A stretch of DNA of 64,000 nt. Source: Pseudomonadota bacterium (GTDB taxonomy: Bacteria > Pseudomonadota > Gammaproteobacteria > Burkholderiales > Burkholderiaceae_C). Every line of letters starts with the position of its first letter. The stretch's first letter is position 1. The notes beneath the pieces were generated by a model, which saw nothing but the letters and a program-made list of their open reading frames with translations, did no database searches and had not been told where the DNA came from. The stretch is taken from NCBI GenBank assembly GCA_963205115.1, contig CAUJHV010000029.1:1-64000 (forward strand), in the 5' to 3' direction. Positions 33,909 to 56,630 of the stretch are shown here, piece after piece. The position numbers were made by a program, and so were the translations under genes.

Positions 33909-33999
33909 GGAGTCGTGACCGAGTGGCCGAAGGTGCTCCCCTGCTAAGGGAGTATGTGCCAAAAGCGCATCGAGGGTTCGAATCCCTCCGACTCCGCCA
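33909..33999 (+). tRNA. tRNA-Ser (anticodon GCU)
   Basis: A 91-base class II tRNA with acceptor GGAGTCG/CGACTCC, long variable arm, encoded CCA and anticodon loop CTGCTAA giving GCU (reads AGC/AGU). It marks the border between housekeeping genes and the accessory catabolic region. Confidence 0.96.
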
Positions 34000-34031
34000 A
34001 CGAACAAGCCCTGCAAGGGGCCGTTCCGGAC

Positions 34032-34052
34032 AAGCCCCGCAAGGGGCTTTTT
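34032..34052 (+). terminator. intrinsic terminator after tRNA-Ser
   Basis: Stem AAGCCCC/GGGGCTT with GCAA loop and a run of five T. Confidence 0.82.
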
Positions 34053-34106: not shown

Positions 34107-35147
34107 CTAATCCAGCCGCAGCGTGCGGCCCTCCACCCAGGAACGTTCGGCCGCGAGTGCCACGGCCACGCTGCGACGTGCAACCTCGGGCGGCATCACC
34201 GAGCGGCCCTGCGCAAAGCCGGCATAGGCCTGTCGCAGGTTCTCTTCCAGCTCGAAGACTTCGCCTGACAGCGGAATGGCCAGCGACTGTGGCGCCTGCG
34301 TGCCGCGGCGCAGCCGCATGTCGAAGCTCGGCGTGGTCGTGCGGTCCATCGTGCCGCTCCACCAGGTGCGCAGCGCGCCGTCGCTGCCCGCGATCTCCAG
34401 CACCGTGTGGTGCTCGAAACCACCCAGACACTGGTTGAGCACCGCGGTGGCGCCATCGGGCCACTCGAGCACCATCGAGAAGTGGTCGCTGAGCGGCTCG
34501 TCCCGCTTGCCGCCAAAGGCTGTCACGGACACCGGCATGCCGCCGCCTTCGCCGTACCACAGCACCAGGTCGATGAAGTGCACCAGTTCCTCCAGCACCC
34601 AGGAACCGACACGTTCGCGGTCATAGCGCCAGCCGCCCGCACCGGTGCGAAAGGCCTTTCGGAACAGCGACAGGTGCTGGTGGCGCACGGTGCCGACATC
34701 ACCGGCGGCCACCCGCTGCTGCACCAGGCCCCATTGGCGCGAGACGCGCAGCTCGTGGTTGACGGCCACGAGCCGACCCGTGCGCCGCGAAGCCTCGGCC
34801 ACGGCGTCGCACTGCGCCAGGTTCAGCCCGAGCGGCTTTTCCAGCACCACGTGCCGGCCGGCCTCCAGCGCGGCCACGGCCGACTCGGCGTGCAGGTGGT
34901 TGGGCAACAGCACGTGGACCACATCCAGGCCGTCGATGGCCAGCAGCTGCCGGTAGTCGTCGACCAGCCGGGCGCCCGGCAAGGCCTGCGCGGCCGCGGC
35001 ACGCGAGGCCTCGCTGCGGACCAGGATGGCCACCACCTCGGCGCCCTCGATGGCCGCGACGGCCTGGGCATGCATCAGGCCCCAGGCGCCGAAGCCGGCC
35101 AGGGCGACGCGGGTGGGCTTGGGCTGCGGTGCGTCAGTGGCGCTCAT
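34107..35147 (-). CDS. Gfo/Idh/MocA-family oxidoreductase
   Basis: A 346-residue NAD(P)-dependent dehydrogenase of the family that includes glucose-fructose oxidoreductase and inositol dehydrogenase. The N-terminal Rossmann fold has AGFGAWGLMHA, and the EKPLGLN motif that is typical of the family lies near residue 95-101. Substrate unknown; sugars, inositols and their derivatives are common. It is the last gene of the minus-strand catabolic run, 56 bases after the PLP enzyme, and its stop lies next to the tRNA-Ser terminator. Conserved DLVLWYGE-like C-terminal segment is present. Confidence 0.9.
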   Translation of the reverse strand: MSATDAPQPKPTRVALAGFGAWGLMHAQAVAAIEGAEVVAILVRSEASRAAAAQALPGARLVDDYRQLLAIDGLDVVHVLLPNHLHAESAVAALEAGRHVVLEKPLGLNLAQCDAVAEASRRTGRLVAVNHELRVSRQWGLVQQRVAAGDVGTVRHQHLSLFRKAFRTGAGGWRYDRERVGSWVLEELVHFIDLVLWYGEGGGMPVSVTAFGGKRDEPLSDHFSMVLEWPDGATAVLNQCLGGFEHHTVLEIAGSDGALRTWWSGTMDRTTTPSFDMRLRRGTQAPQSLAIPLSGEVFELEENLRQAYAGFAQGRSVMPPEVARRSVAVALAAERSWVEGRTLRLD

Positions 35148-35203
35148 GAGATCCCCTCAGGTGTGTGCGGAATGGCGAGGCTGGCGCGGAGGCCCCAAGC
35201 CTC

Positions 35204-36277
35204 TCAGGCGACGCGCCCGCGCGCATCGATGACGATCGGATCCGTCGCCTGTCCGCCGCGCAGGGCCAGCACGCGATCGAGCAGGTTGCTGACGACGCAG
35301 ACGTGGTTGGGCAGCACGCGCACGACGTCCCCGACCTGCGGCGGATGGGCGCAGGCCGAGACATCGACGAAGCCGTGCTCCTCGGCCAGCTTGTAGATGC
35401 GGGCCTGCGGGTGGTCGGGCAGCAGGCCGAAATCGCTGAAGCCGGCGAGATCGGAGGACAGGATCTTCGAGCCGGCATCGATCATGGCGCGGCCTGCGTC
35501 GGGCCGGCTGACCACGGTGGCCATGACGTGCAGCGCACAGTCTTCGGGCGCAGCGGCGCCCATGCGCAGCATCTGCCGGTCGTTGTAGAGGTAGGTGCCG
35601 GCGCGGTATTCGGTCTCGCCGGCCTGCCCGATGCGCGCGCGGTTCGGCGTGCCGCCGCTGCTGATGGTGTGCAGCGCCAATCCGTGTGCGGCGCAGGCGC
35701 TGCGGGTGGCTTCGACAAACGCACGTGTCGGCGTGAGATCGCCTTCGGGCGGATACAGCAGCAGCCCGTCGAAGGCCAGTCCGGGAAGCGCGGCGATGTG
35801 CTGCGCCAATGCCGCGGCCGCTTCGGGGCTGCTGACGCCGCAGCGCTGGCGACCCGTGTCGCACTCGACCAGCACACGCACCGGCGCGCCATCCCGCCCG
35901 TCGAACGCACGGGCATAACCGTCGGCCACCGTGGCGTTGTCGCACGACAGCGTGAGACGGCATCGCGAGGCCAGCGCGCGCAAGCGCGGCAGCTTGGCGG
36001 CGCCGGCCACGTTGTACGAGATCAGGATGTCGTCGATGCCGGCCGCAGCCATCACCTCGGCTTCGCCCAGCTTCTGGCAGGTGATGCCCGTGGCGCCGGC
36101 CGCGAGCTGCAGCCGCGCGATCTGCGCCGACTTGTGCGTCTTGATGTGCGGGCGGTTGCGCACGCCGGCCTGTGTGCAGGCGTGCTGGTGACGCGCGATG
36201 TTGCGTGCCACCACGTCCAGGTCCACCAGCGCGGCGGGTGTGTCCAGCGTCCGCAGGAAGGTGTCAGACAGGTTCAC
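35204..36277 (-). CDS. PLP- and zinc-dependent D-amino-acid lyase-fold enzyme
   Basis: A 357-residue protein of the D-threonine aldolase/D-serine dehydratase family (alanine racemase-type N-terminal barrel). PLP lysine: the PHIKTHKS motif near residue 42. The C-terminal metal site is a His-x-Cys pair (PNHVCVV), as in D-serine dehydratase and D-threo-3-hydroxyaspartate dehydratase; D-threonine aldolases usually have His-x-Asp. It therefore more likely dehydrates or cleaves a D-3-hydroxy amino acid. The start is GTG 36277, chosen because AAGGA lies seven bases upstream; an ATG at 36334 would abut the amidohydrolase stop. The substrate is not known. Confidence 0.85.
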   Translation of the reverse strand: MNLSDTFLRTLDTPAALVDLDVVARNIARHQHACTQAGVRNRPHIKTHKSAQIARLQLAAGATGITCQKLGEAEVMAAAGIDDILISYNVAGAAKLPRLRALASRCRLTLSCDNATVADGYARAFDGRDGAPVRVLVECDTGRQRCGVSSPEAAAALAQHIAALPGLAFDGLLLYPPEGDLTPTRAFVEATRSACAAHGLALHTISSGGTPNRARIGQAGETEYRAGTYLYNDRQMLRMGAAAPEDCALHVMATVVSRPDAGRAMIDAGSKILSSDLAGFSDFGLLPDHPQARIYKLAEEHGFVDVSACAHPPQVGDVVRVLPNHVCVVSNLLDRVLALRGGQATDPIVIDARGRVA

Positions 36278-36334
36278 GGGTGGTCCTTCCTTCGGCCCGT
36301 CCAGCGCAGGCCCGTGATGGGTGTCGGCGTGCAT

Positions 36335-37531
36335 TCATGGCCGGCCCCGTTCGCGCGGCAATTCCCAGGGGCGCGGCTCGGCGTCGTACCAGCAGCCTGC
36401 ACGCAGCATGCCCAGCGGCTTGAGCAGCTGCACACCGTCGCGCGTGGCGCCGGTGGCGTCGGTGAAGCGCAGCGGGACTTCGGCCACGCGCAGCAGGGCC
36501 AGGTCGGCCGGGGCGCCGACGCCCAGGTGGCCGAGCTCGGGGCGGCGCATCGCACGCGCCGGCTCGACGGTCGCCATCCGCACCAGATCGATCAGCGAGA
36601 CGCCGCTGTTCAGCAGCTTGTTGATGCTGTGCAGCAGGTCGAAGGCCGGGCCATCGACGCTCAGTGCATGCACGTCGCTCGAGACCGTATCGGGCAGGAA
36701 GCCGTCGGCGATGGCCGCTTCGGCGCTCTCGAAGCCGAAGGAGCCGAAACCGTGCCCGAGGTCGAAGCGCACGCCGCGTTCGCGTGCGCGGCGCAGGGCG
36801 GGCAGCACCCGGCGCCGGTCGTCCACCGGGCCGTTCGGCGAGGGGCGGAAGCAGTGCGTCAGGATGTCCCCGGGGCGCAGGCGGTCGACGATCTCGGCGT
36901 AGCTCGGTGGGGCCTGCCCGACGTGGCACATCAGCGGCAGCCGGGCCGCCTCGGCGGCGGCCAGCGCGCGGTCCAGCGCCGGCAGGCCGATGTCGCCCGA
37001 GACCGGGCCGCCCAGCCGCACCTTGATGCCCACCACCGTGTCGGCGTGGCGCTGTGCGACCTCGACACAGCGGCCCACGTCGAGCAGATCGAGCCGGTTC
37101 GCTTCGCCGACCATCAGGCCCCGGTCGAAGGCAAAGATGCCGGGGAAGGAAATGTTCAGGAAGGCCAGCATGCGCGGCGTGGCGCCGGCCATCACGAAGT
37201 CCTTCAGGCCGGCGTAGTTGCCGGCCCCGGCGCTGCCGGCATCCACCAGCGTGCTCACCAGCGAGCGCCGCGCGATGCGATCCGGATCGACGCCGTAGGA
37301 CGTGGCTTTCCAGTACACATGCGTGTGCAGGTCGATCAGACCCGGCACGACGACCGCACCGGTCGCGTCGCGCACCCAAACGCCTGACATCCGCGACAGC
37401 TGTGGCGCCAGGGCCGCGACGCGGCCGTCGCGCACGCCGATGTCGCAGACCGCATCCAGGCCGTGGCGCGGGTCGATGACACGCCCGCCGGCGACGATGC
37501 CGTCCAGTGGCGGGACCTCGGTGTTCACCAT
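36335..37531 (-). CDS. amidohydrolase/deacetylase-family metallohydrolase
   Basis: A 398-residue dihydroorotase-like metal hydrolase. Metal-site elements in order: DLHTHVY (two His), VGIKVRLGG (Lys that is normally carboxylated), MCHVGQAP, ILTHCFRP and the catalytic Asp in VSSDVHALS. Characterised relatives in this COG3964 group hydrolyse alpha-acyloxy esters and N-acyl amino acids rather than dihydroorotate, so an N- or O-deacylating role in the pathway is likely. ATG 37531 overlaps the SDR stop. It precedes the PLP enzyme. Confidence 0.88.
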   Translation of the reverse strand: MVNTEVPPLDGIVAGGRVIDPRHGLDAVCDIGVRDGRVAALAPQLSRMSGVWVRDATGAVVVPGLIDLHTHVYWKATSYGVDPDRIARRSLVSTLVDAGSAGAGNYAGLKDFVMAGATPRMLAFLNISFPGIFAFDRGLMVGEANRLDLLDVGRCVEVAQRHADTVVGIKVRLGGPVSGDIGLPALDRALAAAEAARLPLMCHVGQAPPSYAEIVDRLRPGDILTHCFRPSPNGPVDDRRRVLPALRRARERGVRFDLGHGFGSFGFESAEAAIADGFLPDTVSSDVHALSVDGPAFDLLHSINKLLNSGVSLIDLVRMATVEPARAMRRPELGHLGVGAPADLALLRVAEVPLRFTDATGATRDGVQLLKPLGMLRAGCWYDAEPRPWELPRERGRP

Positions 37532-38193
37532 GGCAGCGGCTGCCCGTCGTGGCTGAGGTACACGCCCGTCTCGTGGTTGCCCAGGCGCCCCACCAGCGCA
37601 CGCATGGCCTGCACGCTCTGCTCGGCAGACAGCGGCGCGCGCGGGCCACCGCCGGCCGTGGAGACCCAGCCCGGGTGGACCATCGCCACTGTGATGCCGC
37701 GCGGGAAGAGGTCGATCGCCAGGCTGCGACCCAGGGCGTTCAGGCCGGCCTTGCTGGCGCGGTAGCCGTAGTGCCCGCCGGACAGGTTGGAACCGATCGA
37801 GCCCATGCGGCTGGTGATGAAGACGATGCGGCGCTGCTCGCTGGCCGCGACGCGGTCGACGAAGGTCTCCACGAGTCTCAGTGCGCCCACCAGGTTGACC
37901 GCCAGCATGCGCTCGACATGGCCGAAGTCCAGCGTGCCGAGCTGCCCGGTGTCCAGGCCAACGCCGGCGTTGGAGATGAGCAGGTCGATCGGCGTGTCGC
38001 CGATGCGCTGCTTCAGGGCCTCGAATTGGGCGAAGTCGGTGACATCCAGCGCGGCGTGCTGCATGCGCGTGTCGTCCGGCGCCTGCGCCAGGTCGCGGTA
38101 GGTGGCCCACACCGTCCAGCCGGCATCGGCGTATTGCCGCGCGAATTCGCGCCCCAAGCCGGTGTCGCAGCCGGTGATCAGTACGGTAGGCAT
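37525..38193 (-). CDS. short-chain dehydrogenase/reductase
   Basis: A 222-residue SDR oxidoreductase. Nucleotide-binding motif TGCDTGLGRE near residue 7-16; NAG motif in LLISNAGVG; catalytic Ser in ITSRMGSIG and the YRASK motif (Tyr-x-x-x-Lys) near 150. Length fits a classical SDR. The substrate is unknown. The reading frame overlaps the amidohydrolase start by seven bases and lies 23 bases after SMP-30. Upstream in-frame codons run through the SMP-30 gene and are excluded. Confidence 0.9.
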   Translation of the reverse strand: MPTVLITGCDTGLGREFARQYADAGWTVWATYRDLAQAPDDTRMQHAALDVTDFAQFEALKQRIGDTPIDLLISNAGVGLDTGQLGTLDFGHVERMLAVNLVGALRLVETFVDRVAASEQRRIVFITSRMGSIGSNLSGGHYGYRASKAGLNALGRSLAIDLFPRGITVAMVHPGWVSTAGGGPRAPLSAEQSVQAMRALVGRLGNHETGVYLSHDGQPLPW

Positions 38194-38216
38194 CGGGGGG
38201 GCTCCGTGGGCTGGGG

Positions 38217-39101
38217 TCAGGGGTTGGCGAACAGCGGTTCCGGCAGGCCACGCGCGCCCAGGCCGTCGATCTGGAACAGCGCACCGGCCAGCGGCCATTG
38301 CGCACGTTCCGTGTCGACCAGCATGCGCGTGGCGCTGGTGACGTACAGGCGGTCCAGCTGCGGCCCGCCGAAGGTCACCATGGTCGGGTGACGCGCGGGC
38401 ACCGCGATGCGTTCGATCAGGCGCCCGGCCGGCGAGATGCAGGCCACGGCCGCGCCGTGCACCAGCGCACACCAGTAGTTGCCTTCGGTGTCGCAGGTGG
38501 CGCCGTCGACACGGCCTTCGATGTCCTGTGTCGAGAAGAAACGGCGCCGGCCGCTGAGCGTGCCGCGCGCGAGATCGAAGTCGTAGAGCCAGACGGTCTC
38601 GTCGCGGCTGTCGGCCAGGTACATGCGCGTGTCGTCCGGGGAAAAGGCGATGCCGTTGCCCACGATGAAGCCGCCGTCCATGCGCGTGGCCTGCAGGGCG
38701 GCATCCAGCCGGAACAGCTCGCCCTGGCGGCCGATGAAGTCGGAATGCAGGCTGGCGCACCAGTAGCGCCCGCGGCGGTCGCACTTGCCGTCGTTCAGCA
38801 GCAGGCGGCGGTCGCGCGCCAGCGGGTCGGCGATGGGCCCGCAGGTGGCGCGGCCCGATGCCAGCCGGATGCGTTGGAAGCCTTCCCGCGTGCCGGCCAC
38901 GAGGCTGCCGTCGCGGGCGAAGACGAAGGAGCCGATGTCGAAGGGCAGGGCAAAGCTCTCTACCGCGCCCGTGGCCGGGTCGAGCCGGCGGATCGCCGGT
39001 GCGAACGCGTCGACCCAATACAGGCGTTGCTGCGCCACATGCCATTGCGGCCCTTCGCCGAGCAGGTCGGGGCCGGGGCAGGCGACGCCGATCTCGATCA
39101 T
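38217..39101 (-). CDS. SMP-30/gluconolactonase-family protein
   Basis: A 294-residue six-bladed propeller lactonase. The metal-binding residues are visible: Glu in LLGEGPQWH near residue 18, Asn in NDGKCDRRGRYW, and Asp in AFSPDDTRMYLADS. These enzymes open sugar-acid lactones. ATG 39101 overlaps the stop of the mutarotase gene by four bases (ATGA). In context it would act after a sugar-like intermediate is oxidised to a lactone. Confidence 0.93.
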   Translation of the reverse strand: MIEIGVACPGPDLLGEGPQWHVAQQRLYWVDAFAPAIRRLDPATGAVESFALPFDIGSFVFARDGSLVAGTREGFQRIRLASGRATCGPIADPLARDRRLLLNDGKCDRRGRYWCASLHSDFIGRQGELFRLDAALQATRMDGGFIVGNGIAFSPDDTRMYLADSRDETVWLYDFDLARGTLSGRRRFFSTQDIEGRVDGATCDTEGNYWCALVHGAAVACISPAGRLIERIAVPARHPTMVTFGGPQLDRLYVTSATRMLVDTERAQWPLAGALFQIDGLGARGLPEPLFANP

Positions 39102-40024
39102 GCGAGGCTGCCCGATGCGCGGTAGCGCAGGCGCAGGCCGTGTTGTGCGACCGCGTCCGGCGCGAGATGCCGTGTCGACGGCCGCGCCGCAAATTCGCCC
39201 CGGTAGTCCTCGGGGTCGCCATGTCCCGTCCAGGCCTCGATGCTCAACAGCGGCGCGCCCGGCTGCGACCACAGCGCCCAGTGGGCAAAGCCCTGCGCCT
39301 CGATCTCGATGGCCGAGCCGTCCGGTGCCTCGAAGGCCAGCTGTTGGCTGCGCGCGTCCAGCAGGCACAGGGCCTCGTCCGCCAGCAGCGCCGGCGTCAG
39401 CGGGAGGCGACGCCCGGCCAGGGGCAGCGGCCGTCGCGCGGCACTGAACAGGCCCTGCGGCGTGATCACGGGCACCTGCGGCTGCTCGTCATGCGAGAAG
39501 ACCACCGCATGGCCATCGGTGCCGCCCGCGCCCCAGGGCCAATGGAAAGCCGGGTGCAGGCCGATGGAGTAAGGCAAGGGCGTGTCACCCTCGTTACGCA
39601 GCGTGAGCGTGATGGCCATGGCCGAGGGTTCCAGCCGGTACTGCGCGAGCAGCTCGAAGGCAAACGGGTAGGCGGCATGCGTGCGGGCGTCGCTGCGCAG
39701 CGCCAGCGTGACCTGGTCCGTCAAACGTTCGATCAGCACGAACGGCGTGGTCGAGGCAAAGCCGTGGCTGGGCATCGGGTGCGGCCGGCCATCGAACCAG
39801 GCCAGGCCTTCGCGCAGGCGCCCCACCACCGGGAACAGCAGCGGGCTGTGGCGCGCCCACCAGCGCGCGTCGCCCGACCACAGCAGGTCCTGCGCACCGC
39901 AGGTCCAGCGGGACCACTCGGCACCTTGCAGCTGCACCGCCGCGTGGGCATCACCGCAGGCCAGCACGATCGCCTCGCTCGCTTCGACGCCAGGCGCGCG
40001 CCGCGCAGCCGGTGCGGGGGTCAC
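39098..40024 (-). CDS. aldose 1-epimerase-family protein
   Basis: A 308-residue galactose mutarotase-like protein. The catalytic histidine region is SHGFASTTPF and GLHPAFHWP, and the catalytic Glu is in LSIEAWTG near the C-terminus. It should interconvert anomers of a sugar or sugar derivative. The start is GTG (40024), which overlaps the stop of the large-subunit gene (GTGA); no ATG exists before the conserved core. This tight coupling ties the sugar-handling genes to the amidase-like genes. Confidence 0.88.
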   Translation of the reverse strand: MTPAPAARRAPGVEASEAIVLACGDAHAAVQLQGAEWSRWTCGAQDLLWSGDARWWARHSPLLFPVVGRLREGLAWFDGRPHPMPSHGFASTTPFVLIERLTDQVTLALRSDARTHAAYPFAFELLAQYRLEPSAMAITLTLRNEGDTPLPYSIGLHPAFHWPWGAGGTDGHAVVFSHDEQPQVPVITPQGLFSAARRPLPLAGRRLPLTPALLADEALCLLDARSQQLAFEAPDGSAIEIEAQGFAHWALWSQPGAPLLSIEAWTGHGDPEDYRGEFAARPSTRHLAPDAVAQHGLRLRYRASGSLA

Positions 40025-42291
40025 GGGTCGATGCCCTGCCAGCGGCCGAGGTCGGCCACCAGCGGATCGGGTTGCAGGAAGCGCCGCAGCACGTTGCCGG
40101 TGATGCGCTGCACGGCAGCATCGCCGCCCTCGGCCGCCAGGCCGCCGACCCAGGCGATGGAGCCCGTGCTGAAGACGGCGCCGCCGCCGGGCACGGGTTG
40201 CAGCACGACATCGGCCCGCACCGCAGGCGAGTACGCGGCGCTGAGCGTCGGGCGGGACACCAGCAGTTCTTCGTTGGCGACCAGGTAGGTGCCGTCGAAG
40301 GGCAGGGAACTGGCGATGCGCCAGGCGTAGGGCGCGGAGCCCAGCGCTTCGTCGTGCCGGTCGACTTCGATGCCGGCGCAGCCGCCGCCGATCGCACCTT
40401 GCAGGCCGAAGGTCGCGCCTTCGGCGCCCTCGAAGACGAAGGCGACTTCGGGCCGATGGGCCGCTTCCGCGCGGCGGTAGCCCACGCAGCGCCGAAAACC
40501 CTGGCCGCAATAGCCCACGCCCAGCCAGGATTGCGGCACGAGCCCGCTGCGCCGCCACAGGCCGCCGTAGGCGCCGTCGAACGCGTGGTAGTACTCGCCG
40601 GGCTCCTCGGCCCAGCTGCGGTTGCCGTCTTCTGCGCGGCGCAGCTCGATCACGCCTTCGGTTTCGGGATGGCAGGCCACCTTCCAGTAGAAGCCGTTGC
40701 CGCCCAGGTACATCAGCCGGCCGCCGTCGTCGATGAAGCGGCGGTAGGCCGCCACGGTCTGTGGCGTCGCGTATTCGGGGTGGTTGCCGGTGAGCACCAC
40801 GCGGTAGGGCGCAAGCGCATCGGCGCCTTGTGCCTGCAGGTCCTCGTCGGTGAGGGCGTGCCAGGCGATGCCCTCGCGTTCGAGCCACTCCACCAGCAGC
40901 AGGTCGCCCGGATAGTTCCATCGGCCCGAGCCTTCCCCCGCCTGCCAGGCGCGCTGGTCGGGGTGGAAGGTCGGGATCGGGCGCAGGCGCGAGGCCACGC
41001 TGACACCCGAGCCGTCGTGGTGCGTGTCGTACAGCGACAGGCCCCACTGCGGATGCCGTGACAGCAGCACCTCGCTCGGGTCGAGCGAGACGACGCAATC
41101 GGCCAGCACCTCCGGGTTGTGGCCGTGCAGCGCGCAACGGTCGTTGGCGTAGGCCAGGTAGGTGAAGCTGGGGAAGACCAGCGCCACGGTGTCGCTGCGG
41201 CTCAGTGGCGCAGCGGCTGGCGGGCGCACGAACAGCGGCAGGCGGCACAGGTCACCGGTCAGCGCGTGCGCCGGCCCGTCTGCGTCCGTTGAAGCTTCGG
41301 CGGCAACACGCAGCCGCAGCGCATAGGCACCCGAGGGGAGCGACGCGGGCAAGGTGACGCGCGCGGTGACGGTCCAGCCGGCATCGGTCAGGTCGTCGCG
41401 GTGGACGTGCACGGCCGCGAAGTGCTGCGGCGCCTGTCGCCAATCGAACACCTCGCCGGTCCAGCGCGCGCCGCGCACGGCGCGCTTCGGGCCCTGGACC
41501 AGCCGGCCATGCAGGCCATGCGGCCCGAGATCCACGACGCGGTTTTCGCCGCCACCGGGCGCGAAGTCCCAGCAAGTCACCGCTCCGGGCGGCAGGCCGG
41601 TCTGCTGCAGCAGAGCCGCCTGCAGCGCATGGAGCGCCGGCGTCTCGCGCCACAGCACCGGGCGTTCGAGCCGCCCGTCGACATGTGCCTCGACGCGGCC
41701 GTCTGCCATCGGCGTGCCGGCCAGGGTCAGATCGGTCAACGCGTGTCCGCTCCCCGCGTGGTCCAACTGGGCGGAGGACCAGCGCCCCACGCGCGGATCC
41801 ACCACCTGCAGGACCACGGCCGACGGCGACCAGGACACCACCACCAGCATCCATTGCCGCAGCAGGGCGCGTTGTGCGGTGCGCGCGCGGGCCTCGCCCA
41901 CCTGCAGCGCGAAGTGGCCGTCTTCGTCGATGAGCACGCGCAGCGTGTCCGGCCCGCAGGCCAGCGCGGCCAGCGTCTGCTCGTCGCCCGCGATGCACCA
42001 GGGGCTGACCAGCAGGCCCAGCGTGCCGCTGACCAGTGCCAGCGGCTGCAAGTGTTCGAAGCGGACATGCGAGCCGGCATCGACCGGCTGGTGGCGGATC
42101 TCCACCGTCTGCACACCGGCCTCGGGCACGGTCTCGAAGACGATGCCGTCGGGCTCGGCGCGCTCCTGGCCGCGCCCCAGGCGGATCAGGTCGAGCCGCC
42201 CGGTCACCGGCCGGTCGCTGGACAGGTGGACCGCCACGGTCTGGCCGGGCGCCGCTGTCCAGCGGTCGAGATAACCCACCACCTCAGCCAT
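40021..42291 (-). CDS. N,N-dimethylformamidase-like large (beta) subunit
   Basis: A 756-residue protein of the N,N-dimethylformamidase large-subunit family (762 residues in the characterised enzyme), a mononuclear-iron amide hydrolase. The 2-Tyr-1-carboxylate iron site described for the Paracoccus enzyme appears conserved: Tyr378/381 in FTYLAY, Tyr421 in SLYDTH, and Glu506 in NHPEY (assigned by pattern, not alignment). A lectin-like domain lies at about 230-355. ATG 42291 gives MAEVVGYLDRW. It overlaps the small-subunit gene by eight bases. Substrate may be another N-formyl or small amide; dimethylformamide is only one possibility. Confidence 0.88.
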   Translation of the reverse strand: MAEVVGYLDRWTAAPGQTVAVHLSSDRPVTGRLDLIRLGRGQERAEPDGIVFETVPEAGVQTVEIRHQPVDAGSHVRFEHLQPLALVSGTLGLLVSPWCIAGDEQTLAALACGPDTLRVLIDEDGHFALQVGEARARTAQRALLRQWMLVVVSWSPSAVVLQVVDPRVGRWSSAQLDHAGSGHALTDLTLAGTPMADGRVEAHVDGRLERPVLWRETPALHALQAALLQQTGLPPGAVTCWDFAPGGGENRVVDLGPHGLHGRLVQGPKRAVRGARWTGEVFDWRQAPQHFAAVHVHRDDLTDAGWTVTARVTLPASLPSGAYALRLRVAAEASTDADGPAHALTGDLCRLPLFVRPPAAAPLSRSDTVALVFPSFTYLAYANDRCALHGHNPEVLADCVVSLDPSEVLLSRHPQWGLSLYDTHHDGSGVSVASRLRPIPTFHPDQRAWQAGEGSGRWNYPGDLLLVEWLEREGIAWHALTDEDLQAQGADALAPYRVVLTGNHPEYATPQTVAAYRRFIDDGGRLMYLGGNGFYWKVACHPETEGVIELRRAEDGNRSWAEEPGEYYHAFDGAYGGLWRRSGLVPQSWLGVGYCGQGFRRCVGYRRAEAAHRPEVAFVFEGAEGATFGLQGAIGGGCAGIEVDRHDEALGSAPYAWRIASSLPFDGTYLVANEELLVSRPTLSAAYSPAVRADVVLQPVPGGGAVFSTGSIAWVGGLAAEGGDAAVQRITGNVLRRFLQPDPLVADLGRWQGIDP

Positions 42292-42625
42292 CGATGCCCT
42301 CCGGATCCCAGCCGTGCAAGGCCTGCCAGCGGGCACGGAAAACGGCCCATTCGGCATCGGCGCGCGAGGTCCAGTGGCCGCCGACGATGTCCACCGGCAG
42401 CCCGCGCCCGCCCAGCCGCACGAGCGTCCAGCCGCCGCGCGTGGGCAGCCGCATCAGCGCATGTTTGCCGGCCGCCGGCACGTTGCGCAGCGGCAGCAGC
42501 AGGGCCTGCAGTTCGGCGTCGTAGGGGCCCATCGGGCGTTCGCGCAGGCGGCGGATCAGCACGCGCTGGCGAGCGCGGGCCTGAGCCGCGTCAGAGGTCG
42601 CGTCGTCAGTGTTCGATGCGCTCAT
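42284..42625 (-). CDS. N,N-dimethylformamidase-like small (alpha) subunit
   Basis: A 113-residue basic protein that overlaps the large-subunit gene by eight bases. Its size, position directly upstream of the large subunit, and C-terminal pattern (WTLVRL then an EWAVFRARWQ helix) fit the about 130-residue alpha subunit of DMFase, which is encoded first in the known dmfA1A2 order. The alpha subunit stabilises the alpha2-beta2 complex. It also overlaps the 3' end of the thiamine-diphosphate enzyme gene by 20 bases. Confidence 0.8.
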   Translation of the reverse strand: MSASNTDDATSDAAQARARQRVLIRRLRERPMGPYDAELQALLLPLRNVPAAGKHALMRLPTRGGWTLVRLGGRGLPVDIVGGHWTSRADAEWAVFRARWQALHGWDPEGIDG

Positions 42626-44294
42626 GGTGGACCGCCACGAAGTGGTCGGAATAGTCGTGCTTGGCGATGCGCGCGTCGATCAGCACCGGCACGCCCGCCT
42701 GGTTGAGCCGTCGGGCCTCCTGCACCGCCGCGTCGACCTGCGCTGCCTCGGTGACGGTGATGCCGTGGCAGCCCTGGGCCCGGGCGATGGCCGCAAAGTC
42801 GCTGCCCACCGCAAAGCCCGTGTTCACCAGCGGACGGCCGGTCAGCACCTGGTTGTACTGCACCCACCCGAAGGCCTGGTTGTTCAGCACCACCCAGGTC
42901 ACGCCGCACTTCCATTCGGCCGCCGTGGCCAGCTCGACGATGGACATCTGCATCGCGCCGTCGCCGACGAAGCACACGACCTGCTTGTCCGGCCGCGCCA
43001 TCTTGGCGCCGATCGCGCCGATGGCGCCCATGCCCATGGCGGTCTGCTCGGCCATGGGCACGCAGTCGCCCACGTCGAGCACGCGGTAGTAAGGCCAGTA
43101 GTAGCACCACAGGTCGGCAGCGCCGTTCTCCTTCATCAGGATCGTATCCCTGGCGAAGATGCGGTTGACCGATTCCAGCAGCTGGCGCGTGCGGATCGGG
43201 TCTTGCGGCTGCCGCGCATCCGCCAGGCAGCTGGCCGTGAACGCGCGGCTGGTATCGGCCAGGCGCTGCGCGCGGGTGTCGTCGCGGCGCAGGCCGCGGC
43301 GCTCGAGCTCGGCATCGAGATCGCGCAGGCTGGCCGCGACATCGCCGGCCAGGCCGACGTCGGGCTGCCAATTCATGCCGAGGGCCAGCGGGTCGATGTC
43401 GACCTGGATCATGCGGGCCCGGCCAGGGTAGAGCGCCCAGCTGTTGGTGCTGAAGGCCTCCAGGCGCGACCCGAGCACGAGCATCACGTCGGCCTCGTCG
43501 TACCAGCGCTTGCCGGCCTGGGTGAAATACAGCCCGATCTGGCCCAGGGCGTGCGGCCCGTCCTCGGGGTAGATGCCGCGGCCGCTGGGCGTGGTCAGCA
43601 CGGCCGCGGCCAGACGGTCGGCCATGCGCGCCACCTCGGCCGCCGCGCCCGAGACCACGGCGCCGCCGCCGCACACGATCACCGGCTGGCGCGCGCCCAT
43701 CAGCAGATCGGCCGCACGTGCCACCGCCTGCGGATCGGGGCGCATGGGGCCGTGCTGCTGCGACGGCACATAGGCCGGAATCGTGCCGCGCTGATCGGCC
43801 AGATCGGACGGCACCTCGACGTAGACCGCGCCCGGCCGGCCGCTGCGCGCGGTGGCAAAGGCGCGCCGCATCACCCAGGGCACGCGCCGGATGTCGGCCA
43901 CGCGTTCCATCCACTTGGTCACCGGTTTCATCAGCGTGCGGGTGTCCAGTTCCTGGAAGGCGCCCATGCCTTCCTGCAGCTGAACCACGCCGTTGGCGAT
44001 GGCCACCAGCGGCACCGAGCCGCAGGTGGCCTCCAGCAAGCCGGTGACCAGGTTGGTGATGCCCGGCCCCGGGTTGGAAAACACCACGCCGGGCTGGCCG
44101 GTCAGGCGGCCCCAGGCATAGGCGCAGGCCACCGCGGACTTTTCGTCGCGCATCAGCACGAAGCGGATGTCCGAATGGTCGGCCAGGTCGTTGAGCAGGT
44201 GCTTGGGGTTGCCGGGCAGGCCGAATACGCGCGTCACGCCTTCAGCCTTCAGCGCTTCGACGACGGCCCGCCAGGGGCCCATGGTCTCGGTCAT
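42606..44294 (-). CDS. thiamine-diphosphate enzyme, acetolactate synthase-like
   Basis: A 562-residue enzyme of the acetolactate synthase/glyoxylate carboligase superfamily. The catalytic Glu51 (RDEKSAVA) and the cofactor motif GDGAMQMS...LNNQ near residue 430-455 are present. It has all three domains (PYR, central, PP). The family includes C-C ligases, decarboxylases and lyases; the exact reaction cannot be told. The start ATG has a clean AGGAG site. It lies 13 bases from the ABC ATPase stop and overlaps the small DMFase-like subunit gene. Confidence 0.88.
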   Translation of the reverse strand: MTETMGPWRAVVEALKAEGVTRVFGLPGNPKHLLNDLADHSDIRFVLMRDEKSAVACAYAWGRLTGQPGVVFSNPGPGITNLVTGLLEATCGSVPLVAIANGVVQLQEGMGAFQELDTRTLMKPVTKWMERVADIRRVPWVMRRAFATARSGRPGAVYVEVPSDLADQRGTIPAYVPSQQHGPMRPDPQAVARAADLLMGARQPVIVCGGGAVVSGAAAEVARMADRLAAAVLTTPSGRGIYPEDGPHALGQIGLYFTQAGKRWYDEADVMLVLGSRLEAFSTNSWALYPGRARMIQVDIDPLALGMNWQPDVGLAGDVAASLRDLDAELERRGLRRDDTRAQRLADTSRAFTASCLADARQPQDPIRTRQLLESVNRIFARDTILMKENGAADLWCYYWPYYRVLDVGDCVPMAEQTAMGMGAIGAIGAKMARPDKQVVCFVGDGAMQMSIVELATAAEWKCGVTWVVLNNQAFGWVQYNQVLTGRPLVNTGFAVGSDFAAIARAQGCHGITVTEAAQVDAAVQEARRLNQAGVPVLIDARIAKHDYSDHFVAVHHERIEH

Positions 44295-44307
44295 GCGGTT
44301 CTCCTGT

Positions 44308-45930
44308 CTACCGGGTCCGCGCCGCAGCCCAGGCCGCGGCGTCCATGCGGGGAATGGCGGACAGCAATTCCCGCGTGTAGGGGTGTTCGGGCGCGCTCAG
44401 CACCTGGTGTGCCGGGCCCGTCTCGACGACACAGCCGGTCTTCATCACCACGATGCGGTCGGCCATGCGCGAGGCCACGCGCAGGTCGTGGGTGATGAAG
44501 ATCATCCCGAGACCGTCGCGCGCCTGGATCTCTTCGAGCAGGTCGAGGATCTCGGCCTGCACCGACACATCCAGCGCCGAGACCGGCTCGTCGGCAATCA
44601 GCAGCCGCGCCTTCATGGCCAGCGCGCGCGCGATGACGATGCGTTGGCGCTGGCCACCGGAAAACTCGTTCGGGTAGCGATCGGCCGATTTCGGATCGAC
44701 ACGCACGCGCGCCAGCAGCTCGCGGGCCTCCTGCATCGCCTGCGCATGCGGTGTGCCGTTGGCCATCGGCCCCATGGCGATGCTGTGGCCCACCGTGTGG
44801 CGCGGGTTCAGCGAGGCAAACGGGTCCTGGAAGACCATCTGCACGGCGCGCCGCAGAGGCGCGAGTTCACCCGCGCGCAGAGCGAGGTAGTCGTCGGACA
44901 CACCGGCCAGCTGCGCCTGACCGGCGTCGCAGGGGGTCAGCCGCGCGAGCAGCCGTGCCAGCGTGGACTTGCCGGAGCCGGATTCGCCCACCACGGCCAC
45001 CGTCTCCCCGCTGCCCACCGACAGCGCCACGTCGGCCACGGCGGCCACCGCCTGGGCGCGTCGCCACCAGGGGCCGCTGGCCTTGAAGGTCTTGCGCAGG
45101 CCATGGGCCTGCAGAAGCGGCGCGCCGGGCGCCCGCGGGGCACGCGGCACCAGCGGCGGCACGGCGCTCAGCAGACGCCGCGTGTAGTCCGCGCGCGGCT
45201 GGGCCAGCACCTCGCTGCGCGGGCCGGATTCCACCAGCAGGCCGTCCTTGAGCACGGCCACGTCGTCCGCCATCTCGGCCACCACGCCGAAGTCATGCGT
45301 GATAAGCAGCAGGCCCAGCCCGTGGCGGGCCTGCAGGTCGCGCAGCAGCCGCAGGATCTGCGCCTGGGTGGTGACGTCAAGGGCCGTGGTGGGTTCGTCG
45401 GCAATGATCAGCGCCGGGTTGGCGGCCAGCGCAATGGCGATCATCACGCGCTGACGCTGGCCGCCCGACAGCTGCCACGGGTAGCTGTGCACCGTCGAGC
45501 CGGGTGTCGGCAGGCCGACATCCTTCAGCAGGTCCAGCACCCTTGCTTGGCGGTCGCCAGGCCACTCGTGCCGGTCCAGCACCTCGCGCACCTGGCGGCC
45601 GATGCGCTCCAGCGGGTTCAGGCAGGACAAGGGGTCCTGGAAGATATAGCCCACGCGTCCGCCGCGCACGGCCAGCAGTTCGGTGGGGCTCATCGCCAGG
45701 GTGTCACGGCCCTCCAGCAGGATGCGCCCGCCGGTGATGCGCAAACGCGGCGACGGCAACAGCCGCACGATGGCCGCGGCGGCCAGCGACTTGCCCGAGC
45801 CGGATTCGCCCACCACACACAGCGTGCGACCGCGCTCGACGCGCAGCGACAGGTCTTCGACGGCGTGCCGCCGGTCGGCGCCTGGCGGCAGCTCGATCGT
45901 GAGCCCCTGGATGTCGAGCAGGGCCGTCAT
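44308..45930 (-). CDS. peptide-type ABC transporter, two fused ATPase domains
   Basis: A 540-residue fusion of DppD- and DppF-like ATPases. First domain: Walker A GESGSGKS near 40 and signature LSGGQRQR near 155. Second: Walker [10 protein letters not shown] near 320 and signature FSGGQRQR. Each domain powers the permease pair 45927-47746. ATG 45930 overlaps the permease stop (ATGA). It differs from the transporter at 14.7 kb by having a short linker. Confidence 0.94.
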
Positions 45931-46760
45931 GGCGCGGTGGCGCGCCGCGCACGCAGCAAGGGGTTGCCGGCGTCGCCGATGCCGTCGGCCAGCAGGTTGA
46001 TCGACAGCACGGTCACGAATAAGCACAGCCCGGGCAAGACGCTGAGCCACCAGGCCTCGCGGAAGACGGGACGCGAGGCGCCGATGATGTAGCCCCAGCT
46101 GATGAGGTTGGGGTCTGCCAGGCCCAGGAAGCTCAGCGAGGATTCGGTGAGGATGGCCGTGGCCACCATCAGCGAGCCCACGGCGATCACCGGGGGCAGC
46201 GCATTGGGCAGGATCTCGCGCACGATGATCTGCCCGTGCCCCAAGCCCAGCGAACGCGCGGCCTCGACGAATTCGCGGCTGCGCAGGGTCATGAACTCCG
46301 ATCGCACCAGGCGAGCCACCGGCGGCCAGGTCACCAGCGCGATGGCGATGATCACGCTGCGCAGGCCCGGCAGCAAGATGGCCACCAGCAGGATGGCAAA
46401 CAGGAAGGCCGGGATGACCTGGAAGAATTCGGTGAAGCGCACCGCGATGCGGTCGGCGGCGCCGCCGAAATAGCCGGCCAGCGCGCCCACGGTCACGCCG
46501 ATCAACAACGCGCACAGGCTGGAGGCCATGCCGATCATCAGCGATACACGCGCGCCGTGGATCAGGCCCGAGAGCAGGTCGCGCCCGAGCATGTCGGTGC
46601 CGAGCAGGAAGTCGCCGCCCGGCGCAGCCAGCGGCGGGCCGAGCAGGGCCCAGGGGTCGTGTGGCGCGAGCCAGGGGGCCAGCAGCGCGACCAGCGCAAT
46701 CAGCGCCAGCGTGCCGCCGCCCACCCACAGTCGCCAGTTCCGTTGCAGCAAGGAGGCCAT
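45927..46760 (-). CDS. peptide-type ABC transporter permease (DppC-like)
   Basis: A 277-residue inner-membrane permease. Typical DppC N-terminus with first helix then a TDMLGRDLLSGLIHGARVS motif, and the EAA-loop FVEAARSLGLGHGQIIVREILPN near residue 165-190. ATG 46760 gives the usual N-terminus. It lies 17 bases after the first permease and overlaps the ATPase gene. Confidence 0.93.
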   Translation of the reverse strand: MASLLQRNWRLWVGGGTLALIALVALLAPWLAPHDPWALLGPPLAAPGGDFLLGTDMLGRDLLSGLIHGARVSLMIGMASSLCALLIGVTVGALAGYFGGAADRIAVRFTEFFQVIPAFLFAILLVAILLPGLRSVIIAIALVTWPPVARLVRSEFMTLRSREFVEAARSLGLGHGQIIVREILPNALPPVIAVGSLMVATAILTESSLSFLGLADPNLISWGYIIGASRPVFREAWWLSVLPGLCLFVTVLSINLLADGIGDAGNPLLRARRATAP

Positions 46761-46777
46761 GGTGCGGGTGCCGGCGC

Positions 46778-47746
46778 TCAGCGGCCGATGCGCGGATCGA
46801 CGAGCCTCAGCACCAGATCGGTGAGCAGGTTGGCCAATACGACCATCACCGAGCAGATGAAGAACACGCCCAGGATCACGGCATAGTCGCGCTGCAGCAG
46901 GGCGTCGAAGGCCAGCCGTCCGATGCCGGGCCAGGCGAACACGGTTTCGATGACCACGGCGCCGCCCACCAGGTGGCCGATCTGCAGGCCGGCCATGGTG
47001 ACCGTGGGCAGGATCGCATTGCGCAGCACATGGCCGCGCATCACCTGGCGATCGGTCAGACCCTTGGCCTGCGCGGTGCGCACGAAATCGCGGTCCAGCA
47101 CCTCGAGCGTCGAGGCGCGGGCCAGCCGCACGTAGACCGCCAGGTACAGCAGCGACAGCGTCGTCGCCGGCAACACGAGGTGGTGTGCCACGTCGATCCA
47201 GTGCGCCACACCCTGCTTGGGGATCATGGAAGCCATGCCAAACGCCGGAAACCAGCCCAGTCCCACCGAGAACACCAGCACCAGCACCAGGCCGACCCAG
47301 AAGACCGGCATCGCGTAGCACAGCATCGCCAGCGAGCCGATGAGCGCATCGACCCAGCCGCCGCGCGATCGCGCGGATGCGGTGCCCAGTGCGGTGCCGG
47401 CCACGATGGCCACCAGCAGCGCGGTCACGGTCAGCAGCAGCGTGGCCGGCAGGCGCTGCGTGATCAGCTGCCACACCGGCACGTTGCTGCGGTAGCTGAC
47501 GCCCAGGTCCAGCCGGGCCAGCCGGGCCAGGTAGTTGGCCACCTGCACCGGCATGGGCTGGTCCAGCCCGTAATCGCTGCGGATGCGCGCGATGAAGGCG
47601 GCATCGGCCGCGCCGCTCTCGCCGGCGATCACCGCCGCCGGGTCGCCGGGCGCCAGGCGGATCAGCGCAAAGTTGAGAAGCCCGATAGCCGCCAGCGTGA
47701 GCAGCGCGCGGGGCAGCCACGCGGCAATGGCGGCGAGCAGGCGCAT
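46778..47746 (-). CDS. peptide-type ABC transporter permease (DppB-like)
   Basis: A 322-residue inner-membrane permease. It starts with a hydrophobic helix followed by the FALIRLAPGDPAAVI motif typical of DppB, has the EAA-loop FVRTAQAKGLTDRQVMRGHVLRNA near 220-245, and ends VDPRIGR. It lies 55 bases after the receptor gene. Confidence 0.93.
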   Translation of the reverse strand: MRLLAAIAAWLPRALLTLAAIGLLNFALIRLAPGDPAAVIAGESGAADAAFIARIRSDYGLDQPMPVQVANYLARLARLDLGVSYRSNVPVWQLITQRLPATLLLTVTALLVAIVAGTALGTASARSRGGWVDALIGSLAMLCYAMPVFWVGLVLVLVFSVGLGWFPAFGMASMIPKQGVAHWIDVAHHLVLPATTLSLLYLAVYVRLARASTLEVLDRDFVRTAQAKGLTDRQVMRGHVLRNAILPTVTMAGLQIGHLVGGAVVIETVFAWPGIGRLAFDALLQRDYAVILGVFFICSVMVVLANLLTDLVLRLVDPRIGR

Positions 47747-47801
47747 CGGGTTCTGGCGGGTCGTGGCCTGCGTGGCGACGGTGGTGTGCGTGCCGGGCCG
47801 C

Positions 47802-49379
47802 TCAGCGGGCCTTCTCCAGCCAGGCCTCGGCGAAGTTGCCGTTGGGCCCCATGCCGTTGATGACGGCGTTGTGCAGGCGCCGGCTCATCACAGTGGGCCA
47901 TTGCAGCTCGACCAGCCAGATCACGGCCGCATCCTCGACCAGCAGCTTCTGCACCTCGGAATAGAGCTGCTTGCGCTTGCCATCGTCGGTGGCCGAAGCA
48001 GCTTCGGCGAACAGGGCATCGACCTTCGGGTTCGAATAGCCGGACTCGTTGCTGAAGGGCACGCCCTTGCGCTGGTTCTCGGTGATGAAGGTGCGCGAGA
48101 CCCCGAGCGCCGGATCCGACAGCGTGGTCAGGAAGGTCATGATCATCTCGAAGTCCCAGTTCCCCAGGCGGGCGACCCAGCCGGCGGCGTCCGTGGACTC
48201 CAGCACCACCTCGATGCCCACGCGGCGCAGGGCCTGACGCGTGCTCTCAGCCGCGCGGTTCCAGACCTCGCCATACGGCAGCCCCAGCAGCTTGACCCGC
48301 GCGCGGATGCCGTTGGCGTCCTTCTTCAGGCCCATTTCGTCGAGCAGCGCTTCGGCCTTGGCGATATTGAAGTCGTACGCGCGCACGGCCGGCTCGTAGT
48401 AGGGCGAGCTGGAATGGATCGGGCCGGTGGCCACCTTGGCGAAGCCCGAGAAGATGGTGTCGCGGAACTGGTTGCGGTCCAGCGCGTGCATCACGGCCTG
48501 GCGGAAGCGCCGGTCGTTGAAGGGCGCCTGGCGCAGGTTCATCTCGATCCAGGCGATCGGAGAACCCCATTCCCAGCCCTTGGCCGTGCCTTCCAGACCG
48601 GGCATCTTGGACAGGCGGGCCGCGTCGCGCAGTTCCAGGTCGTTCTGCGTGGCGATCTGGAACTGCTGGCTCTCGATGCCCAGCGCGCGGGAGGCCGCGT
48701 CCGGGATGAAGCGGTAGTAGATCTCGTCGAGGTAGGGCAGGCCGGCGCGCCAGTAATCGGCGTTGCGCACAAGATGGATGTACTCGCCGCGCTTCCACTC
48801 CTTGAACTTGAACGGGCCGGTGCCCACCGGGTTGGCGTTGGCGGGGTTCTTGCGGAAGTCCGTGCCCTTGTAGATGTGGGCCGGCAGCACCGGCGCGCCG
48901 ATGGTGTCGAAGCTGCGGATCAGCGGTGCGAAGGGCTTCTCGAGCGCGAACTCGACCGTGTAGTCGTCGACCTTGCTGACCTTGGTGCGCTGGAAGACGG
49001 CCTTCGAGCGCGGGTGCACGTCGACCAGGTACTCGCCGAAGGTGAACAGCACGTCGTCGGCTGTGAAGGGCTTGCCGTCGTGCCACTTGACGTTGCGGCG
49101 CAGCTTGAAGGTGTATTTGCGACCGTCGGGCGCGATGGTCCAGGACTCGGCCAGCATGGGCTGCGGCGCCAAGCCGAAGTCGTAGGTCAGCAGGCTCTCG
49201 AAGATCTTCGTGCCCGGCAGCAGCGCAGGCGACTGCAGGAACATGCCCGGCACGATACCCGGGGGCTCGGGCCACAGGGTCGACTGCAGCGCGCCGCCGC
49301 GTACGGGCGCCTGTGCCGCCGCCAGGACCACCCAGCCGCCCAGCAGCAGGGCCAGCAGGTGCTGCAACAGTCTTTTCAT
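47802..49379 (-). CDS. peptide-type ABC transporter substrate-binding protein
   Basis: A 525-residue secreted receptor of the SBP_bac_5 family with a signal peptide (LLALLLGGWVVLAAAQA). The family handles peptides, nickel, opines and other amine-bearing solutes, so the ligand is not fixed by homology. ATG 49379 has a good AGGAG site eight bases upstream. It is the first gene of the thirteen-gene minus-strand run and is divergent from the MocR-type regulator. A GGCGC-GTGGT-GCGCC hairpin in the leader (49395-49409) may influence its expression. Confidence 0.93.
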   Translation of the reverse strand: MKRLLQHLLALLLGGWVVLAAAQAPVRGGALQSTLWPEPPGIVPGMFLQSPALLPGTKIFESLLTYDFGLAPQPMLAESWTIAPDGRKYTFKLRRNVKWHDGKPFTADDVLFTFGEYLVDVHPRSKAVFQRTKVSKVDDYTVEFALEKPFAPLIRSFDTIGAPVLPAHIYKGTDFRKNPANANPVGTGPFKFKEWKRGEYIHLVRNADYWRAGLPYLDEIYYRFIPDAASRALGIESQQFQIATQNDLELRDAARLSKMPGLEGTAKGWEWGSPIAWIEMNLRQAPFNDRRFRQAVMHALDRNQFRDTIFSGFAKVATGPIHSSSPYYEPAVRAYDFNIAKAEALLDEMGLKKDANGIRARVKLLGLPYGEVWNRAAESTRQALRRVGIEVVLESTDAAGWVARLGNWDFEMIMTFLTTLSDPALGVSRTFITENQRKGVPFSNESGYSNPKVDALFAEAASATDDGKRKQLYSEVQKLLVEDAAVIWLVELQWPTVMSRRLHNAVINGMGPNGNFAEAWLEKAR

Positions 49380-49460
49380 GTGTGTCTCCTGAAAGGCGCG
49401 TGGTGCGCCAGCGATGAAGAGTCGCCGAAGCCTACGCGCTCGACTGGCCCAGCTACAAGC

Positions 49461-49494
49461 ACCAATTTCTGCCAAACTGATGGAACCACTTTGC
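49461..49494 (-). promoter_or_regulatory. candidate MocR operator and divergent promoter region
   Basis: Read on the minus strand, this stretch has AAAGTGGTTCCA and two further TGG half-sites (TTTGGCAG and ATTGGTGC). MocR-family regulators bind direct half-sites of this general kind near their own promoters. Site identity is inferred from position and pattern only. Confidence 0.35.
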
Positions 49495-52967: not shown

Positions 52968-53004
52968 CCCGATCGCACTACTGCACAGAGAAGGAGCCCT
53001 TCGC

Positions 53005-53733: not shown

Positions 53734-53895
53734 GAAGGTGTGAACGAACCCAACACACCCACTCATGCCCCGCAAACGGGCCATCTCTGCGTGGCAATGC
53801 TCGTGGTAGCCCGAGCTACGGCTGCGCTTTGCCCCTTGACCTGACCCGTTTGCGGGGCCTGCTCGGGCGCGCTGGGTTCATTCACAGCTTCTGAG
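53730..53895. repeat. 166-bp nested inverted-repeat element (MITE/REP-like)
   Basis: The ends are imperfect 23-base inverted repeats (53730-53752 and 53873-53895, 20 of 23 matching). A perfect 14-base inverted repeat, GCCCCGCAAACGGG, is nested inside (53767-53780 and 53845-53858). A smaller hairpin (GCTCG/CGAGC) lies in the middle. No coding frame is apparent. Its left end includes the stop codon of the preceding gene. Confidence 0.75.
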
Positions 53896-54011
53896 TCGCC
53901 GACCGCGTTGCGCGCTTGGTGACAATGCGCCGAGGCGGCCACCCGGTCGCCACCCACGGCGCACGATGCGTCCATCGACGCTCGGCAGCCCACATACGGA
54001 GACTCCCGCAC

Positions 54012-54401: not shown

Positions 54402-54461
54402 TCGGCTGATGGCCTGACGATCGGGCACCGGCCGGTGGTGCCACCGCGCGACCCGGCCGGC

Positions 54462-55412: not shown

Positions 55413-55579
55413 GGTGAGGGTCTCCTGGGGGGGCAGTGCGCGCGACGGGCCTTCAGGCATTCCCCTTCAGGCATTCCCTAGTGGCTGGCGGCGCGGCTGC
55501 GGGTAGGGTGTGGCAACGATCCTAGTCCTTTGCCCGGCGCGATCTGCGCGGTCGGGCTGAATCCGCGAGGTGCCTGCGC

Positions 55580-56596: not shown

Positions 56597-56630
56597 GGCG
56601 GGGCGCGTGACGCCGCAGCAGGAGGACCCC

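Follow-up and report, generated by a model that had tools for sequence, protein, structure and literature searches.

What compound would a bacterium take up and break down with thirteen adjoining genes that combine a peptide-type importer, a thiamine diphosphate (ThDP) enzyme, a relative of dimethylformamidase (DMFase) and enzymes of sugar and amino acid families? The question arises from positions 49379 to 34107, on the minus strand, of a 64,000-nucleotide stretch (hereafter the window) of contig CAUJHV010000029.1, from a bacterium of Burkholderiaceae_C (GCA_963205115.1). Judged by gene order, the thirteen genes and a divergent MocR-type regulator gene are a real conserved operon, which two other species carry with the same gene order: Comamonadaceae bacterium G21597-S1 (locus L010; genome G557) and the source of metagenome-assembled genome contig CAISJH010000619 (L011/L012; same-genus genome G010). 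Import of an amide and its iron-dependent hydrolysis are well supported as predictions from the gene content. For the operon as a whole, we lean towards MocR-controlled scavenging of an amide-bearing, probably polyhydroxylated compound, a reading that we find somewhat favoured rather than secure.

The initial annotation had proposed a thirteen-gene run on one strand, and the open reading frames (ORFs), with a coding-type pattern of GC content at third codon positions, agree with it from the family-5 receptor gene, the first, to the Gfo/Idh gene, the last. Its statement that the genes mostly overlap by 4-20 bases held for six of the twelve junctions (4, 20, 8, 4, 4 and 7 bp), but the other six are gaps of 13-57 bp, the largest being 57 bp. 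The family names that it gave were confirmed by Pfam and NCBIfam or, for the permeases and the ATPase, by eye and by matches in the relatives. It had overlooked the divergent MocR gene and a 40-bp block at 49453-49492. The features are as follows, with percent identities to the relatives.

49528..51012, plus strand: MocR-type regulator (GntR and aminotransferase fold; PF00392 and PF00155), divergent; identity 69/77% in L010/L012, where its position is the same
49453..49492, minus strand: conserved upstream block from the three-locus comparison, candidate MocR operator
47802..49379, minus strand: ATP-binding cassette (ABC) substrate-binding protein, family 5 (PF00496, SBP_bac_5); 82-88% in L010/L012
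46778..47746, minus strand: DppB-type permease, named by eye; 84-85% in relatives
45927..46760, minus strand: DppC-type permease, named by eye; 80-85% in relatives
44308..45930, minus strand: fused DppD-DppF-type ATPase, named by eye; 76-80% in relatives
42606..44294, minus strand: ThDP-dependent enzyme, acetolactate-synthase-like (PF02776/00205/02775); 82-84% in L010/L012
42284..42625, minus strand: DmfS, DMFase-like amidase small subunit, assigned by profile and fold; 63-67% in two relatives
40021..42291, minus strand: DmfL, iron-dependent large subunit (PF20254, E 1.1e-79)
39098..40024, minus strand: aldose 1-epimerase (mutarotase)-like protein (PF01263); 55% in L012
38217..39101, minus strand: SMP-30/gluconolactonase (PF08450; solved relative 7plb); 72% in L012, 75% and unlinked in G557
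37525..38193, minus strand: short-chain dehydrogenase (SDR; PF00106); 73-76% in L010/L012
36335..37531, minus strand: COG3964-type amidohydrolase (PRK09237 passed); 71% in L010
35204..36277, minus strand: D-threonine aldolase / D-serine dehydratase-type pyridoxal phosphate (PLP) enzyme (PF14031 and PF01168; solved relative 4v15)
34107..35147, minus strand: Gfo/Idh/MocA dehydrogenase (PF01408/PF22725); 70-76% in L010/L012
34007..34022, minus strand: terminator-like hairpin past the last gene (6 matches in all, close to the shuffled mean of 4.4)

Co-occurrence in other genomes had been named beforehand as the test of the proposal, and the presence of the cluster in two of them bears out a single conserved unit built on the iron amidase. 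Ten of the fourteen genes (regulator counted) are collinear across the three genomes; the core common to all comprises the divergent MocR, binding protein, DppB, DppC, DppDF, ThDP enzyme, DmfS, DmfL, SDR and Gfo genes. Only four of the 37 flank proteins in the window match other loci, and what they match are in-cluster paralogues or, once, a TctC-type gene; thus the gene block was kept while its surroundings differ. The unit is also rare. Among the 81 genomes of the genus, a DmfS profile recognized four, namely that of the window, G010, G020 (DmfS and DmfL in another setting) and G034 (a weak match of 23 bits, L080). The ThDP enzyme was searched by scoring the best three and up to six first-look candidates per genome, and was found in 2 of 399 family genomes at E 1e-120 and in 1 of 229 class genomes, that of the window itself, at E 1e-110; plasmids held no relative of it at E 1e-100. 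All three copies met, including that of G010, lie within this operon.

The two amidase subunits

The DmfS frame begins 20 bp within the ThDP gene and stops 8 bp within DmfL, and it had no match in the Pfam or NCBIfam libraries. Its assignment as a DMFase-type small subunit is supported by profile and predicted fold, because it is kept in the two relatives (L010, L012), the profile detects a counterpart immediately upstream of the 40%-identical DmfL of G020, and both the annotated DMFase small subunit and solved folds are recovered. A profile of five DmfS sequences, with the Paracoccus protein left out, gave the annotated DmfA1 28.9 bits, whereas none of 2000 shuffles scored above 7.6. The AlphaFold model, built on a three-row alignment, reached a predicted local distance difference test score of 80 (for two of the five models the score was under 60). 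When it was compared with the PDB by Foldseek, the first three of 181 matches were DMFase small subunits (probability 1.00, template modelling score 0.54-0.63), and the other 47 shown among the best 50 of the 181 all had probabilities of at most 0.12. The two-subunit DMFase-like hydrolase of the initial annotation is upheld by these results.

For the large subunit, we compared 54 DmfL loci, those above 150 bits among 61 assembled; this is a non-random sample, drawn from 20 of 25 match rows (the window's own included), 14 of 24 and 13 of 13 match rows and 16 plasmid regions (75 plasmid records matched), and seven loci were left out as too distant (L126, L127 and L130-L134). PMC7686228 gives the DMFase iron ligands as Y399, Y440 and E521, with H519 essential, and attributes the poor turnover of larger amides to Phe693 in the pocket. 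The equivalents of the three ligands and of H519 are identical in all 54 aligned sequences, the window's included, and that of N547 is kept in 51. At the position of F693 the window has valine, and phenylalanine occurs in four rows only: L093 (the annotated DMFase), L120, L140 and L141. Therefore the mononuclear iron site is kept in DmfL, with a pocket unlike that of DMFase. In a tree of 52 DmfL sequences (L079 and L143 left out), those of the three ThDP clusters group in a single clade with full support and a long stem of 1.72; the deeper placement of this clade is weakly supported (86/72).

The closest solved relatives of DmfL are N-acetyl-(R)-beta-phenylalanine acylase (8huy, 339 bits) and then Paracoccus DMFase (6lvb, 280 bits). 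With DMFase, the window system shares the small-then-large gene order, PF20254, the Y399/Y440/E521/H519 site and the fold of the small subunit. It differs in the lower score of DmfL to DMFase than to the acylase, in the long-stem clade and in the change of Phe693 to Val, and the importer, oxidation and ThDP genes of the operon were not seen around dmfA1 on pAMI2. The acylase is the best solved relative and of similar length, but its entry lists a single kind of chain, whereas the window has a DmfS overlapping DmfL by 8 bp; L076, a near relative of the acylase, has a different neighbourhood and no DmfS detected by the markers used.

In the PDB copy searched, the solved relatives of DmfL cover only two activities, hydrolysis of dimethylformamide and of N-acetyl-beta-phenylalanine, and the conserved operon is a compact case for finding the natural substrate of DmfL-type enzymes. 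Searches of open-access full text found no paper on dimethylformamidase in a gene cluster with an ABC transporter, none joining dimethylformamidase with an N-acetyl acylase and none on a beta-phenylalanine acylase.

Regulator and catabolic enzymes

The MocR frame opens at 49414, and its start is probably near 49528. Its product passes the NCBIfam PdxR model NF052282 (425.1, cut-off 320) and fails the rhizopine-catabolism MocR model NF052281 (464.6, cut-off 650). Like PdxR/MocR regulators, it joins a GntR to an aminotransferase domain and lies beside an upstream box resembling the PdxR motif; it differs in adjoining a catabolic operon and in falling below the rhizopine-MocR cut-off. Since it adjoins the operon, it probably controls it. 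The 40-bp block upstream of the receptor gene is kept at all three loci and starts in the window with AAAGTGGTTCCA (from 49492 downward), within which region AAAGTGGTTCCATCA occupies 49478-49492 on the minus strand. The PdxR motif is quoted as AAAGTGGW(-/T)CTA in PMC4494728, and the likeness of the box to it is suggestive only.

The ThDP enzyme has the three domains of the acetolactate synthase / glyoxylate carboligase family and a visible GDG...NN, which we take to be the ThDP-enzyme motif. It differs from that family in lying below the cut-off of each of the top 25 among 57 NCBIfam families (TIGR00118: 344.6, compared to 538), and we assign it, from these scores, to a putative subfamily of its own among acetolactate-synthase-like enzymes. 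BbmA chains are its closest solved relatives, with CsmA further among the matches. Nothing relevant on BbmA together with thiamine was found in open-access full text, nor on scyllo-inosamine with thiamine in the portions of such text that were accessible.

The best solved relative of the lactonase is the SMP-30 chain 7plb, presumably a xylonolactonase; the unlinked ortholog in G557 (75% identity) has as neighbours a 2-hydroxyacid dehydrogenase gene and the genes of a UgpC/MalK-type ABC importer, and no mutarotase match was found in that genome at 1e-10. The COG3964-type gene passes PRK09237 (389.4, cut-off 371), a model that we equate with COG3964. It had no match in G010 at 1e-20, and the accessible portions of open-access text on cog3964 held only work on dihydroorotase. 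The PLP enzyme, which has the solved relative 4v15, fails the BhcC 3-hydroxy-D-aspartate aldolase model NF045642 (172.6, cut-off 690) and is represented elsewhere only by 32-40% paralogues (G010, G557). The Gfo/Idh protein fails the inositol dehydrogenase IolG model TIGR04380 (77, cut-off 355), and its best solved relative, PmdC, is remote (78 bits).

From these families we suggest the following route. The family-5 binding protein and the Dpp-type channel would import the intact amide, and DmfS-DmfL would hydrolyse it at a centre of iron held by two tyrosines and one glutamate, giving an amine and an acid. The aminotransferase-like domain of MocR may sense an amine or an amino acid. The polyhydroxy part would be oxidized by the Gfo/Idh enzyme and the SDR; where present, the mutarotase and the SMP-30 lactonase would handle a cyclic sugar and its lactone. 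The resulting keto compound could then be cleaved, decarboxylated or ligated by the ThDP enzyme. In the genome of the window, a further acyl group would be removed by the COG3964 protein, and a hydroxy-D-amino-acid fragment would be broken down by the PLP enzyme.

The probable substrate

A sugar-like substrate is suggested by the lactonase, by the mutarotase and by the tetronate-kinase or sugar-kinase genes that stand beside relatives. The sugar-acid-like compound of the initial annotation is upheld in part: it gains indirect support from the lactonase relative 7plb and the neighbouring sugar genes, but the four sugar or amino acid genes of the run lie outside the shared core, and the release of a formyl group and the C-C cleavage that it proposed are hypothetical. 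We consider a sugar acid plausible as the substrate, and we would put the chance that the substrate contains a sugar or sugar-acid moiety at a little below even.

Several observations weigh against the scavenging of a polyhydroxylated amide. The core common to the three clusters does not need a sugar-like substrate. The L012 cluster has the mutarotase and the lactonase, without the COG3964 gene and the PLP enzyme; the L010 cluster has the COG3964 gene, without the mutarotase, the lactonase and the PLP enzyme. The activities of the ThDP, SDR and Gfo enzymes are not readable from the sequence, gene content names no one substrate, and PmdC presumably acts on a product of aromatic cleavage and not on a sugar. 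For DmfS, the fold matches had root-mean-square deviations of 7.4-8.5 Å, E values no better than 1.3e-3 and identities of 13-15%, and a PDB search with the three-row DmfS sequence profile gave chance matches only. The cluster is known in three genomes only (two of the 81 in the genus by DmfS, and one more in the family), and 16 of the 54 DmfL loci had no transporter by the markers used. Finally, a promoter scan yielded no matches, and because of this the single transcript is unproven.

The substrate might instead be an N-acyl beta-amino acid or an aryl amine, with the lactonase opening the lactone formed when the Gfo/Idh enzyme, in the manner of PmdC, acts on an aromatic-derived hemiacetal. 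That the acylase is nearer to DmfL than DMFase is (339 vs 280 bits), that PmdC is the best solved relative of Gfo, and that the nearby region at 54-59 kb carries Rieske, enoyl-CoA hydratase and TctC genes all point this way. However, the acylase entry has one kind of chain and L076 has no detected DmfS, whereas the window has one; moreover, a mutarotase would be out of place, the run has no ring-cleaving gene and the match to PmdC is weak (78 bits). We therefore regard a beta-aryl amine as an unlikely substrate.

It is similarly improbable, in our view, that the operon holds two pathways, one being the core from the Dpp importer through the ThDP enzyme and DmfSL to the SDR and Gfo, and the other a later insertion of the mutarotase, lactonase, COG3964 and PLP genes for a second substrate. 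These four genes do vary among the three clusters and the lactonase is unlinked in G557, but DmfL, the mutarotase and the lactonase are joined by overlaps of 4 bp each in an order kept in L012, and aldose-epimerase and D-threonine aldolase / D-serine dehydratase (D-TA/DSD1) genes are also found near DmfSL in the distant locus L091. A biosynthetic or modification cluster is very improbable: the solved proteins nearest to the ThDP enzyme are BbmA chains, with CsmA listed too, and ThDP-dependent C-C ligases and Gfo/SDR enzymes are also found in natural-product pathways, but here a binding-protein importer, the amidase and MocR form one unit, transporter genes adjoin 38 of 54 DmfL homologues, and no exporter, synthetase or carrier gene was recognized in the run.

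Related clusters and surroundings

DmfSL pairs elsewhere occur with Dpp, spermidine-type, branched-chain-type, sugar-type and tripartite ATP-independent periplasmic (TRAP) importers in the sampled loci; at least five types of importer thus adjoin relatives whose iron site is intact. A same-strand transporter gene lies within 6 kb in 38 of the 54 DmfL loci, a count from the non-random sample without a random control. Twelve of the 54 loci were scored as having no DmfS, with three corrections: L139 was scored as free DmfS but has a fusion truncated where its contig starts, L079 was scored without DmfS though it is present (its DmfL is split), and L143 lies at a contig edge.

In all 14 branched-chain-type loci examined for it (L071, L072, L075, L077, L078, L098, L116, L118, L128, L135-L138 and L142), a single ORF just upstream of DmfL encodes the permease with its transmembrane part and then, joined by a basic linker, a DmfS domain; L139, its N-terminus cut by the contig, is the fifteenth. 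All 15 rows form one DmfL clade in the tree, next to the annotated DMFase and L096. Pfam recognized only the permease in two of the fusion proteins, with no match for the DmfS domain. The basic linker suggests that this domain is cytoplasmic. With DmfS fused to the permease C-terminus, the amidase would therefore dock where the channel opens into the cell and cleave the entering amide, and the fusion thus suggests that uptake and hydrolysis are physically linked. From this we propose, as a speculation that is on balance rather unlikely, that DMFase-type small subunits are adaptors coupling the iron amidase to an importer, the free DmfS of the window being a soluble version coupled to a new ThDP-based pathway. 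Against fusion as a general rule stand L120, L140 and L141, which have branched-chain-type importer genes and yet a free DmfS, and the 12 loci scored without DmfS. The accessible portions of open-access text on dimethylformamidase (with branched-chain amino acid and ABC transporter) contained no account of such a fusion.

The locus L091, on an A. larrymoorei plasmid (DmfL about 35% identical), has genes for a Dpp importer, DmfS, DmfL, SDR and D-TA/DSD1 one after another and, on the opposite strand, an aldose-1-epimerase gene, and in all these it resembles the window. It differs in having RidA and an HpcH-type aldolase upstream, and its stretch gave no match for the ThDP, Gfo, COG3964 or lactonase genes. 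No paper on it turned up in the literature scans, none of which was aimed at L091. In L070, L079 and L095, DmfSL adjoins a split transketolase (ThDP) pair, a class III aminotransferase and a spermidine-type importer; together with the ThDP enzyme of the window, this indicates that DmfSL pairs with ThDP enzymes of two families. Genes for a 3-oxo-tetronate kinase and a class II aldolase occur at L070, L095, L094 and L115; at L070 the kinase passes its cut-off and the aldolase falls below it, and at L115 (tree label OtnPotTK) no transketolase match was found. In G020, of the same genus (L013 13991-19386 and L014), DmfSL lies near genes for an SDR, a HAD hydrolase, an FGGY kinase and an L-idonate-dehydrogenase-like protein, the last scoring below its cut-off. 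Gene names given by eye around L161, L013 and L070 were confirmed by Pfam or NCBIfam, except for the L013 idonate dehydrogenase and the L070 aldolase. The DmfSL/transketolase region of L070 spans 13087-14941, and at L079 (9235-11495) DmfL is in two pieces in different frames, possibly by an assembly frameshift. Another DmfSL clade (L085, L089, L090, L092) lies near polyamine-like genes in a set varying by locus: glutamine-synthetase-like, N-formylglutamate amidohydrolase, spermidine-type importer, D-amino-acid dehydrogenase and alanine racemase.

At the end of the run, a tRNA-Ser (33909-33999) is convergent with it, and terminator-like hairpins lie on both strands at 34007-34049. We considered a genomic island at this tRNA and rejected it. 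No other copy of the final 16-24 bases of the tRNA occurs in the window, leaving no att-like repeat, and the direct repeats (best 20 of 34 families) look like ordinary coding similarities. L010, L012 and L125 hold no tRNA, and the GC content of 0.709 in the run compared to 0.679 in the rest is a mild difference, a value of 0.709 being reached in other parts of the window.

Beyond the regulator, the region 51300-58729 of the window encodes a GMC oxidoreductase-like protein, a DUF2231 protein, two enoyl-CoA hydratases, a TctC receptor and a Rieske oxygenase component. A second peptide-type ABC transporter, with matches to the Dpp permeases and ATPase, is encoded at 12235-16674, and at 61829-63550 there is a gene that matches the ThDP enzyme of the relatives' loci at 27%.

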